A DNA stretch of 64,000 bases from Streptosporangium album (GTDB lineage: Bacteria; Actinomycetota; Actinomycetes; Streptosporangiales; Streptosporangiaceae), in contig NZ_JACHJU010000006.1 in the NCBI RefSeq assembly GCF_014203795.1, forward strand, positions 1-64,000, read 5' to 3'. This document shows positions 48,998 through 52,201 of this stretch, piece after piece. Under the pieces are notes generated by a model. It was not told the DNA's origin and searched no databases. It saw only the letters and a list, made by a program, of their open reading frames with translations. Made by a program: the position numbers and the translations under genes. Position 1 is the first letter of the stretch. Every line of letters starts with the position of its first letter.

Positions 48998-49240
48998 GTG
49001 TCCGCCCTGTACGAGGTGTTCGTCACCCGGCGGCTGCGCCGCACCCGGTACCAGCTGGACGAGTCGCTCAGCCAGGGGCAGGCGGCCAGGGACCTGCGCG
49101 AACTCGCGGCCAAGGGTTGGCTGCGGTCGTACGGGGAGACCAAGGGGCGTTTCTACGCGCCCGGCCCGAGGATGCAGGCGATCAAGGACGACTCCGCCGC
49201 CCGGGCCGCTCCGCTCCGTGACCCTTGTCGGAACGGGTGA
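48998..49240 (+). pseudogene. Winged-helix DNA-binding fragment
   Basis: An 80-residue frame from GTG 48998. QLDESLSQGQAARDLRELAAKG then WLRSYGETKGRFYAPGPRM is the recognition helix plus wing common at the C-terminus of Fic-type or DeoR-like proteins. The rest of such a protein is missing, no ribosome site is seen, and the frame begins 17 bases after the lon terminator. Probably a truncated remnant; a small stand-alone regulator cannot be excluded. Confidence 0.5.
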
Positions 49241-49286
49241 CCGACATCACATAACGTGTCGGGAATAGGGGTAACCGGGGTCTGTG

Positions 49287-49316
49287 TTGACGCAGACGTG
49301 AAAACGAGCGTGGCAC
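49287..49316 (+). promoter_or_regulatory. Candidate metNIQ promoter
   Basis: TTGACG (49287-49292), 18 bases, TGGCAC (49311-49316). The -35 is good and the -10 poor. Transcription would start around 49323-49328, almost at the ATG of the longer leader peptide reading, which would then be leaderless. Confidence 0.4.
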
Positions 49317-49360
49317 GTCATACCCGCATGGCTTCGCAGGGGCGAGGCACGTGTTGTGAC

Positions 49361-49414
49361 ATGCGCGAGATGTCGAGCATGTGTGCCATGTGCCGCATGT
49401 GCTCCGTGCGCTGA
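49361..49414 (+). CDS. Met/Cys-rich leader peptide upstream of metNIQ
   Basis: The 17-codon frame reads MREMSSMCAMCRMCSVR then TGA: five Met and three Cys codons, with Met at every third position. The DNA is a 9-base repeat (ATG plus six bases, five times). An in-frame ATG at 49328 would extend it to 28 codons with two more Cys and one more Met. Another frame over the same repeats (GTG 49356) gives Cys at every third codon and runs 60 codons to 49538. The methionine transporter operon begins 180 bases downstream. Codon runs for the regulated amino acid are the hallmark of translation-dependent attenuation. No classical terminator/antiterminator pair is obvious. No strong ribosome site; leaderless translation from 49328 is plausible. 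Confidence 0.55.
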   Translation: MREMSSMCAMCRMCSVR

Positions 49415-49593
49415 ACGCGCCGAGCCTCCGGACCCCGCCCGCGCTTCTCACGAAAGCTCCGAGACCATGACCTGCCCCGCGGATGACCTCATCCTGCGCC
49501 GTCTGAGCCACCGCCCCTTCCACCCCGGCACCCGCTAGCCCTCCCCAGGTCCTGAGATCTTTTCGACGATCCACTCGTGTTGGGGAACAAGCT

Positions 49594-50556
49594 GTGATTG
49601 ATGTGTCGGGCCTGCGGAAGGTCTATCGAGATCGGGGGCGCGAGGTGGTCGCCATCGACGGCGTCGACCTCCACGTCCGCGAGGGTGAGATCTTCGGTGT
49701 GCTGGGGCAGAGCGGTGCCGGCAAAAGCACCTTGCTGCGCTGCGTGAACCTGCTGGAACGGCCCACCGAGGGCACCGTCACCGTGGCCGGGCGGGAGCTG
49801 ACCGCGCTGCGGGAGGCCGAGCTGCGCGGCGCCCGGCAGCGGATCGGGATGATCCACCAGCACTTCGCGCTGCTGTCCTCCCGTACGGTGGCCGGAAACG
49901 TGGCCTTCCCGCTGGAGGTCATGAAGGTCGCCAAGGCCGAACGGGCCAGGCGCGTCGCCGAGCTGCTGGAGCTGGTCGGGCTGGCCGACAAGGCCGGAGC
50001 GCACCCGGCCCAGCTGTCCGGCGGGCAGAAGCAGCGGGTCGGCATCGCCCGCGCGCTGGCCGGCAGTCCCTCGGTGCTGCTGTCGGACGAGGCCACCTCG
50101 GCGCTCGACCCGGGCACCACGCAGTCGATCCTGGCGCTGCTCAGAAGCCTGAACCGGGAGCTCGGCCTGACCATCCTACTGATCACCCACGAGATGAACG
50201 TCGTCAAGTCGATCTGCGACTCGGCCGCCATCATGCGTGACGGCCGGATAGAGGAGTCCGGGGCGCTCCCGGAGCTGATCGCCAGGCCGGGCTCCCGTCT
50301 CACCGCGGAGCTGTTCCCCCTCCCCGCACCGGATCCCGGCAGCGTCACGATCACCTTCACCGGGCAGGCCGACGAGCCCGTGGTCTCGGAAGTGGTCTGC
50401 AAGTTCGACGTGGACGTCAACATTCTCGGCGGGGCACTGGAGGAGGTGGCCGGCGCCTCCGTCGGGCGTCTGCGCCTGCGCCTCACCGGTGACGAGCGCG
50501 CCGCCGCCCTGACCTACCTGTCCGAGCGCGGCCTGCTGGTCGAGGAGAGCCGTTGA
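49594..50556 (+). CDS. metN: Methionine ABC transporter ATPase MetN
   Basis: A 320-residue ATPase. GTG 49594 with GGGGA nine bases upstream. Walker A VLGQSGAGKSTLLRC, signature LSGGQKQRVGIARAL, Walker B SVLLSDEATSALDP and H-loop ITHEMNVVK. After residue ~245 the NIL regulatory domain (VTITFTGQADEPVVSEVVCK, VDVNILGGALEEVAGASVGR) binds methionine and shuts the transporter down (trans-inhibition). Powers uptake with MetI and MetQ immediately downstream. Confidence 0.95.
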   Translation: MIDVSGLRKVYRDRGREVVAIDGVDLHVREGEIFGVLGQSGAGKSTLLRCVNLLERPTEGTVTVAGRELTALREAELRGARQRIGMIHQHFALLSSRTVAGNVAFPLEVMKVAKAERARRVAELLELVGLADKAGAHPAQLSGGQKQRVGIARALAGSPSVLLSDEATSALDPGTTQSILALLRSLNRELGLTILLITHEMNVVKSICDSAAIMRDGRIEESGALPELIARPGSRLTAELFPLPAPDPGSVTITFTGQADEPVVSEVVCKFDVDVNILGGALEEVAGASVGRLRLRLTGDERAAALTYLSERGLLVEESR

Positions 50557-50611: not shown

Positions 50612-51268
50612 ATGACATGGGACGAGATGGTTCCCCTGCTGTGGGAGTCGACCTGGCAGACGGTCCAGATGGTGCTGTGGTCCACCCTGTTCACCGTGCT
50701 GATCGGCCTGCCGCTCGGGGTGGCGCTGGTCGTCACCGGCAGGGACGGGCTGCTGCCCTCGTGGACGCTGAACCGGGTGCTCGGACTGGTCGTCAACATC
50801 GGCCGCTCGCTGCCGTTCGTCATCCTGATGATCGCGGTGATCCCGCTGACCCGGCTGATCGTCGGCACCACCATCGGCACGATCGCCACCGTGGTTCCGC
50901 TGACGCTGGGCGCCGCGCCGTTCTTCGCCCGGCTGGTGGAGACCGCGCTGCTCGAGGTCGGCAGGGACAAGGTGCAGGCGGCCCAGGCGATGGGCGCCAG
51001 CCGTACGACCGTCGTGGGCAAGGTCCTACTGCCCGAGGCGATGTCCGGCCTGGTCGCGGGGCTCACCGTGACCGTGGTCGCGCTGATCTCCTACTCGGCG
51101 ATGGCCGGGGCGATCGGCGGCGGCGGCCTGGGCGACCTGGCCATCCGTTACGGCTACCAGCGCTTCGAGACCACGCTCATGGTGGTCACGGTCGTCGTGC
51201 TGGTCGTCGTCGTCCAGCTCATGCAGACCCTGGGCGAGACCGTCGCCCGCCGTCTCGCGCGTCGCTGA
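50612..51268 (+). CDS. metI: Methionine ABC transporter permease MetI
   Basis: A 218-residue permease with five hydrophobic helices. The EAA coupling loop is VQAAQAMGASRTTVVGKVLLP. YSAMAGAIGGGGLGDLAIRYGYQ is the MetI signature near the C-terminus. GGGGGAG lies six bases before the ATG. It lies 55 bp after metN on the same strand. Confidence 0.95.
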   Translation: MTWDEMVPLLWESTWQTVQMVLWSTLFTVLIGLPLGVALVVTGRDGLLPSWTLNRVLGLVVNIGRSLPFVILMIAVIPLTRLIVGTTIGTIATVVPLTLGAAPFFARLVETALLEVGRDKVQAAQAMGASRTTVVGKVLLPEAMSGLVAGLTVTVVALISYSAMAGAIGGGGLGDLAIRYGYQRFETTLMVVTVVVLVVVVQLMQTLGETVARRLARR

Positions 51269-51364: not shown

Positions 51365-52201
51365 ATGCGTAAGTTCATGGGGATCGCGTCCGCGATCACC
51401 GCCCTGGCCCTGGCGCTGACGGCCTGCGGCTCGACCGAGACCGCCACATCCGGAGACACGGGCAAGGCCTCCGCCGCCGAGGTGCTCAAGGTCGGCGCGA
51501 GCCCCGTCCCGCACGCGCAGATCCTGAAGTTCGTCAAGGACAAGCTCGCGGCCAAGGAGGGGCTGAACCTGGAGATCGTCGAGTTCACCGACTACGTCCA
51601 GCCGAACGTCCAGCTCAACGACGGCCAGCTCGGCGCCAACTTCTTCCAGCACAAGCCCTACCTGGACGACTTCAACGCCTCCAAGGGCACCAAGCTGAGC
51701 TTCGTCCAGCCGGTCCACCTGGAGCCGCTGGGCGTCTACTCCAAGAAGCTCACCGATCTCACCGCGCTGGCCCAGAACGCGACCGTCGCGGTGCCCAACG
51801 ACGCCACCAACCTGGGACGGTCGCTGAAGCTGCTCGCCGACAACGGCGTGGTCACGCTGAAGGAGGGGGTCGGCACCGCGGCCACCGAGCGTGACGTCAC
51901 CGGCAACCCCAAGAACCTGAAGTTCCAGCCGCTGGAGGCCGCCCAGCTGCCCCGCTCGCTGGAGGACGTGGACGTGGCCGTCATCAACGGCAACTACGCC
52001 CTGGAGGCCGGTCTCGACCCGGCGAACAAGGCCCTGGTGCTGGAGAAGGCCGAGGGGAACCCCTACGTCAACGGTCTGGTCGTGGCGGCCGGCAACGAGA
52101 AGGACCCGCGCGTGGTCAAGCTCGTCAAGCTGCTCGCCGGCCCCGAGGTGAAGCAGTTCATCGAGCAGACCTACAAGGGAGCCGTCATCCCCGCCTCCTG
52201 A
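51365..52201 (+). CDS. metQ: Methionine-binding lipoprotein MetQ
   Basis: A 278-residue NlpA/MetQ-family lipoprotein. The signal MRKFMGIASAITALALALTA leads to a lipobox LTAC with Cys21. The binding fold begins LKVGASPVPHAQILKFVKDK and carries the diagnostic LNDGQLGANFFQHKPYLDDF and the hinge region VAVPNDATNLGRSLKLL. Captures methionine outside the membrane for MetNI. AAGGAG lies eight bases before the ATG. Confidence 0.95.
   Translation: MRKFMGIASAITALALALTACGSTETATSGDTGKASAAEVLKVGASPVPHAQILKFVKDKLAAKEGLNLEIVEFTDYVQPNVQLNDGQLGANFFQHKPYLDDFNASKGTKLSFVQPVHLEPLGVYSKKLTDLTALAQNATVAVPNDATNLGRSLKLLADNGVVTLKEGVGTAATERDVTGNPKNLKFQPLEAAQLPRSLEDVDVAVINGNYALEAGLDPANKALVLEKAEGNPYVNGLVVAAGNEKDPRVVKLVKLLAGPEVKQFIEQTYKGAVIPAS

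Follow-up and report, generated by a model that had tools for sequence, protein, structure and literature searches.

The classical attenuators of the trp, his and leu operons carry a run of regulatory codons in a leader ORF placed before the cognate operon. Rho-dependent or translational attenuators do not need mutually exclusive structures with an intrinsic terminator. SAM riboswitches (S-box, SAM-IV) and Met T-boxes control genes for methionine transport and biosynthesis. In Actinobacteria, Seliverstov et al. (2005) described Cys leader peptides before cys operons that lack obvious terminators and suggested Rho-dependent attenuation, and, by the account of that study, actinobacterial methionine operons are not preceded by a conserved RNA element (PMC1262725). 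Likewise, leaderless polycysteine upstream ORFs (uORFs) of mycobacteria attenuate the downstream operon, as PMC9031893 and PMC13236596 state in the parts citing Canestrari et al. (2020). The closest described system is metL (SLIV_29928) of Streptomyces lividans TK24, a short leader ORF ending in ..RCMCRRMCAF-stop before metNIQ and termed an attenuator; its transcript is reported to be leaderless, and no Rho-independent terminator was seen (PMC8079986).

Here, we analysed a leader upstream of metNIQ in a 64,000-nucleotide stretch of DNA from Streptosporangium album (the window) and in related genomes. A preliminary description had proposed a translation-dependent methionine attenuator and asserted that no such Met leader was known for metNIQ. 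This assertion does not hold, as metL was reported upstream of metNIQ in S. lividans TK24 in 2021. As far as the accessible texts go, metL in PMC8079986 is the only Met attenuator before metNIQ that our literature search found, and the search found nothing on the second leader ORF described below.

A methionine-codon leader upstream of metNIQ

The features of the locus are listed by position in the window.

49237..49250, no strand assigned: CRP/Fnr-like palindrome GTGA-N6-TCAC upstream of the leader, recognised by motif conservation
49298..49414, + strand: ORF1, Met/Cys-rich leader ORF of 38 aa, VKTSVARHTRMASQGRGTCCDMREMSSMCAMCRMCSVR, likeliest start GTG 49298, based on GTG conservation and ATG frame counts
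49361..49414, + strand: Met-codon block with five Met, one every third codon, plus three Cys, based on the sequence and a single occurrence in the genome
49415..49579, + strand: C-rich, G-poor leader stretch from the ORF1 stop to the metN ribosome-binding region, a candidate Rho-loading region by composition
49467..49538, + strand: ORF2, second conserved upstream ORF, MTCPADDLILRRLSHRPFHPGTR-stop, based on homology in the genus, codon differences and fixed stop spacing
49580..49593, + strand: metN ribosome-binding region, GGGGA ahead of GTG, from the sequence
49594..50556, + strand: metN, methionine ABC transporter ATPase with NIL domain (Pfam ABC_tran and NIL)
50612..51268, + strand: metI, permease (BPD_transp_1, E 1.3e-17)
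51365..52201, + strand: metQ, NlpA-type methionine-binding lipoprotein (Lipoprotein_9, E 2.6e-90)

Sequence and translation bear out the 17-codon frame with Met at every third position, five Met and three Cys, from which the proposal had started: ATG 49361 to TGA 49412-49414 encodes MREMSSMCAMCRMCSVR, with the layout M-x-x-M-x-x-M-C-x-M-C-x-M-C-S-V-R-stop. Over its whole length, ORF1 contains one CC pair and three single Cys amid the Met codons. The leader had been said to end about 180 bases before a methionine transporter operon; we measured 179 nt from the ORF1 stop to GTG 49594 of metN and found the domains of metN, metI and metQ downstream. The best NCBIfam model for metN was TIGR02314 MetN with 352.5 bits, below its cut-off of 499.7. 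No repeat of at least 12 bases was found in the block, and the 9-base repeats of which it was said to consist are a loose codon period. The pattern ATG(N6 ATG)x4 occurs once in the 9,022,456-base genome, at the Met-codon block, with zero occurrences on the reverse strand and zero of a control pattern.

The longer form had been assumed to begin at ATG 49328, which gives 28 codons, and the same frame is open upstream to GTG 49298, giving 38 codons. The in-frame GTG 49298 is kept in all 17 related species, whereas ATG 49328 is ATG in only 13 of the 17 and is replaced by ACG, ACG, GCG and CCG in the other four. GTG 49298 is therefore the likelier start, and the assignment of ATG 49328 is not supported. 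A second frame with Cys at every third codon had also been noted over the block. Such an open frame exists at 49356-49538, but it is not conserved, being open in 13 of the 17 species of list A (see below). Most of its TGY triplets reflect an ATG with T or C behind it, read in the +1 frame, and its frame relation to ORF2 varies by species, which together mark the Cys frame as a by-product. Its fusion with ORF2 into a 60-aa ORF (49356-49538) was rejected, since the frame of ORF2 with respect to that of ORF1 is 0, 1 or 2 depending on the species.

Conservation of ORF1

We compared the leader among distinct species hand-picked from 129 upstream regions into the group lists A (17), N (21) and M (22). 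Near-duplicates (L005, L015, L141, L159, L166, L206) and three loci that have lost the leader (L009, L010, L024) were dropped, and some Nonomuraea-like regions, such as L168, L172, L174, L177, L178 and L156, were left out of N. With ORF1 picked as the frame richest in Met+Cys, which favours in-frame counts, the ATGs in its last 25 codons were distributed over the three frames as 84:0:1 in 17 Streptosporangium/Planobispora-group species, 69:0:3 in 21 Nonomuraea-group species and 56:3:3 in 22 Actinomadura-group species. The same choice of frame was made in 500 dinucleotide-preserving shuffles of each upstream region, scored by the highest Met+Cys count that any frame attained over its final 25 codons, and at most 1 of the 500 reached the observed count for each of the 17 related species. 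The Met-codon leader is thus not a product of chance. The ORF1 peptides themselves differ among species (e.g. MCGMPAMRAMSCMRLTH, CCRMRMGRMPAR, RTCCRRMCDR), so that it is the codon content that has been conserved.

A search for the same leader before metN in related genomes, as the preliminary description had recommended, revealed Met/Cys-rich leaders in the Streptosporangium, Nonomuraea, Actinomadura and Streptomyces-like groups. For the last of these, 41 genomes were searched, 39 had metN and 30 loci were examined, all 30 of which have a Met/Cys-rich leader (..TPGARCMCRMCAF-like) before metN. These leaders are of the same type as S. lividans metL, as described in the accessible part of PMC8079986. 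The comparison of sequences thus leaves the role of ORF1 as a putative Met sensor well supported.

Cys codons are also enriched, in some groups as strongly as Met, which leaves room for cysteine as a co-signal. One could go further and suppose that the leader senses cysteine or the general supply of sulfur amino acids, like the mycobacterial polycysteine leaders, given that in-frame Cys codons are frequent (57, 48 and 91 in the Streptosporangium, Nonomuraea and Actinomadura groups versus 84, 69 and 56 ATG) and that MC pairs recur in the Streptomyces-like leaders. However, the operon transports methionine, and in the Streptosporangium group Met exceeds Cys and the other two frames contain hardly any ATG. 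We therefore regard a leader that senses cysteine or general sulfur amino-acid supply in place of methionine as decidedly unlikely.

A second conserved ORF between ORF1 and metN

ORF2 was absent from the preliminary description. Its N-terminus is variable, its C-terminus follows LSHxP(F/Y)xPGxx-stop with F and Y exchanged at the aromatic position, and MIAPGFVLRRLSHLPFHPGTR and MIFQRHLLSHAPYPPGLA are examples of its orthologues. It was detected in 12 of 16 genomes of the genus at E<=1e-7. Within the window's group, we counted 492 synonymous and 441 nonsynonymous codon differences in the frame of ORF2, compared with 167/819 and 101/905 in the two alternative frames, and base differences fall on the three codon positions as 243/282/658, with 658 of 1183 at third positions. 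The synonymous excess in this frame only, together with the third-position bias, indicates that ORF2 is a constrained coding sequence. Among 63 distinct motif-bearing sequences, the stop (TGA 37, TAG 25, TAA 1) lies exactly two codons past PG in all 63, and a looser motif gave 77 ORF2 matches in the 129 upstream regions, 72 with the two-codon spacing and five in which the stop comes 19-20 codons later; both counts, 63 and 77, are conditional on motif expressions derived from the same data. A scan of 394 genomes of the class produced 33 ORF2 matches at E<=0.05. The 13 at E<=1e-7 and two at 4e-5 are all just upstream of metN in the family, and the remainder resemble chance.

ORF1 and ORF2 tend to occur together. 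Among 107 distinct family upstream regions, a table from which L023, L045-L059 and exact duplicates were excluded, 70 have both ORFs, 27 neither, six ORF2 alone and four ORF1 alone, as raw counts that ignore shared ancestry. For six family members that have ORF2, no more than one Met is present among the final 25 codons of the best upstream frame. The distance from the ORF1 stop to the ORF2 stop is 105-136 nt in 17 species, whereas the spacing between ORF2 and metN ranges from 50 to 259 nt among the groups, so that ORF1 and ORF2 look like one unit. In five of five species, L147-L150 (genus g82) and L153 (g59), the stop codon of ORF2 and the start codon of metN share bases as GTGA, a layout typical of translationally coupled genes. 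These five loci have a distinct Met-rich leader, ..VMTVDVMCDGAMARLTRGVMMCCCRPA, and an ORF2 extended to the metN start codon. For the Streptomyces-like leaders, no second conserved ORF was seen by eye in the 24 rows viewed of a hairpin-to-metN alignment of the 30 loci minus those without the CCCCGAA anchor.

The pattern of conservation raises the question of whether ORF2 could be the main sensor, namely a nascent-chain arrest peptide that would stall ribosomes at or near termination, with methionine or SAM as a possible trigger and ORF1 adding a tRNA-supply input. Conservation concentrated at the C-terminus, the fixed distance to the stop in 63/63 sequences, the F/Y exchange at the aromatic position, the variable N-terminus and PPG or HPG before the end would all fit an arrest peptide, as would the class scan of 394 genomes, in which the 15 near-metN family matches place ORF2 solely upstream of metN. 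But arrest at termination does not predict a stop 19-20 codons past the motif, as found in five species, and we consider ORF2 as the main sensor unlikely. A related two-stage leader, in which ORF1 would read tRNA charging and the ORF2 peptide LSHxP[F/Y]xPGxx-stop would arrest or pause the ribosome, possibly when methionine or SAM is bound, would read two signals of one pathway before releasing metNIQ expression; we entertain it as a tentative idea that is somewhat improbable.

Structure and composition of the leader RNA

No Rfam match was obtained at the gathering score in the 64-kb window, at E<=5 for 49200-49650, or across 20 loci, and a known riboswitch (SAM riboswitch or T-box) was rejected on these null results. 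No intrinsic-terminator-like site was found in 49100-49700. The stretch 49415..49579 after the ORF1 stop consists of 46% C and 22% G, and its excess of C over G is matched or exceeded by only 0.12% of 8512 same-length overlapping windows from both strands of the 64-kb window. Group means of C/G in three family groups are 1.4-2.25 after the ORF1 stop versus 0.58-0.84 upstream of ORF1. Segments between the ORF1 stop and metN in the window's group have C/G of 2.1-2.25, versus 0.58 before ORF1 and 0.56 in early metN. This composition would fit Rho loading, the route that Seliverstov et al. suggested for terminator-less cys leaders (PMC1262725), but is no proof of it.

Predicted RNA structures gave weak support for a switch. 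The whole-leader covariation term is -0.67 kcal/mol, and 241 of 500 shuffles matched the observed count of pairs changed on both sides. GUUGGGG, in the metN ribosome-binding region, could base-pair with CCCCGGC of the ORF2 HPG codons, and 92.4% of cells are paired; this pairing, however, is nearly invariant and thus uninformative. Sequestration of the same region by bases just past the ORF2 stop was unsupported, with poor pairing in several species. With a ribosome mask placed at the ORF2 stop, the metN ribosome-binding region gained more than 0.05 in predicted accessibility in only 7/17 and 7/19 species. A 5' hairpin of ORF1 at about 49327-49352 has some compensatory changes but only 76% of cells paired, and we do not claim it.

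A different element was found in other groups. A hairpin CUCGC-GCCCCGAA-GCGAG is present in 51 of 52 Actinomadura-group and Streptomyces-like loci, with 48 of 51 stems fully paired and with compensatory changes. It is preceded by GAGGGCC and lies between ORF1 and ORF2 in the Actinomadura group and after ORF1 in the Streptomyces-like loci; its loop may possibly form a pseudoknot with GGGC, and the loci scanned gave no Rfam match. GAGGGCC with the hairpin occurs within about 60 nt past the ORF1 stop in L023, L244-L272, L037-L040, L043, L060 and L193-L214. In the group of the window itself, the hairpin is either degenerate or missing, and GAGGGCC and the CUCGCGCCCCGAAGCGAG element after ORF1 are absent from the window sequence.

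Such genes are usually controlled by SAM riboswitches, and the compensatory stem changes of this hairpin in the Actinomadura-group and Streptomyces-like leaders could be taken to favour a metabolite-binding riboswitch of an undescribed class, for methionine or SAM, to which the ORFs would be incidental. Against this stand the absence of any Rfam match, the degenerate or missing hairpin in the window's group, the coding constraint on ORF1 and ORF2, and the weak covariation in the window's group. A new riboswitch class is accordingly very improbable in our estimation.

Promoter side and loss of the leader

The preliminary description had placed ATG 49328 about 12 bases past a candidate -10, an arrangement in which the longer form would be leaderless. 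A consensus promoter scan found no sigma-70-like site. The palindrome at 49237..49250 is probably part of the promoter region, judging from its conservation. The exact GTGA-N6-TCAC is present in the metN upstreams of 16/17 members of the Streptosporangium group and 21/21 of the Nonomuraea group (37/38 together), and in 1/22 of the Actinomadura group, 0/5 of the L147-L153 set and 0/30 Streptomyces-like loci. Within the 64-kb window, it has three matches versus 0.83 expected. The conserved palindrome suggests a Crp-family input to methionine uptake. Further upstream, between lon and the metN leader, lies an 80-aa ORF at 48998-49240 with no Pfam match.

In the genus sample, 15 of the 16 genomes have metN, and three of these lack the leader (L009 in G008, L010 in G004 and L024 in G002). 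L009 and L024 retain a degenerate copy of the leader, and metN of L024 matches residues 1-198 only and has an internal stop. At L010, the whole leader is missing, while the promoter-side palindrome is kept and metN is intact, indicating that the leader block is a removable control element. A stretch related to the 80-aa ORF also occurs upstream of the metN promoter in L010. In the Microbispora-like loci (g86; L036, L184, L185, L187, L188, L190, L191), no Met-rich ORF1 was found; ORF2 is kept in L190 (MTLSPLPDLILRRITHLPFPPGTR) and truncated in L036.

A proposed two-ORF model for the control of metNIQ

On balance, we think it rather likely that a ribosome-mediated two-ORF leader controls metNIQ according to how much charged methionyl-tRNA is available. 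In methionine shortage, a ribosome would slow or stall at the Met (and Cys) codons of ORF1. The stall would alter the fate of the RNA behind the ribosome, most likely permitting translation of ORF2. Ribosomes on ORF2 would then allow metN expression by covering the C-rich RNA from Rho, by coupling or re-initiation at the metN start, or by both. We infer in this scheme that the leader is co-transcribed with metN, that ribosomes stall, that expression rises in methionine shortage, what the effector is, and that ORF2 relays the signal by Rho or coupling. The first link, sensing by ORF1, is supported because the Met-codon content is conserved, and the ORF2 link is supported because of its coding constraint, the co-occurrence of ORF1 and ORF2, and the GTGA overlap in five species. 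Weak covariation, the modest effect of the ribosome mask, structure predictions without a convincing switch, the enrichment of Cys codons and the six family members that pair ORF2 with hardly any upstream Met speak against the two-ORF switch. The translation-dependent Met attenuator proposed at the outset thus survives in its core, a conserved Met-codon frame before metNIQ with no riboswitch match, and was revised as to its novelty, its start at ATG 49328 and its Cys frame.

Amino-acid attenuators for methionine are barely described, and the present comparison extends a single annotated case from S. lividans to a widespread family spanning the Streptomyces-like, Actinomadura, Nonomuraea and Streptosporangium groups. 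ORF2 is an added, protein-constrained uORF and the unexplained and most interesting part of this leader. Should it indeed arrest ribosomes, ORF2 would represent a new arrest peptide linked to the supply of methionine.

Comparison with known systems

Like the classical trp, his and leu attenuators, the window has a codon run, here of Met, in the same orientation and upstream of the cognate operon, metNIQ. In contrast to them, no terminator/antiterminator pair could be shown in its leader. Unlike SAM riboswitches and Met T-boxes, the leader has no Rfam match. With the cys leaders described in the accessible part of PMC1262725, it shares a leader peptide in Actinobacteria and the lack of an intrinsic terminator. 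The mycobacterial polycysteine uORFs, as far as the citing articles describe them, are likewise actinobacterial uORFs in which codons for a sulfur amino acid report supply, but their Cys codons are contiguous, whereas the window has spaced Met codons and a second ORF. In comparison with the Streptomyces-like genomes, the window leader is without the GAGGGCC...CUCGCGCCCCGAAGCGAG element after ORF1. The nearest counterpart is S. lividans metL as portrayed in the accessible part of PMC8079986, since ORF1 of the window is also a leader ORF before metNIQ with a Met/Cys-rich C-terminus; the window leader departs from metL in that Met recurs five times, once every third codon, and in having a candidate GTG start and ORF2. 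By content and position, the leader of the window belongs with S. lividans metL, as far as the latter is documented there, from which it is set apart by the codon run, by the presence of ORF2 and by the lack of the hairpin.
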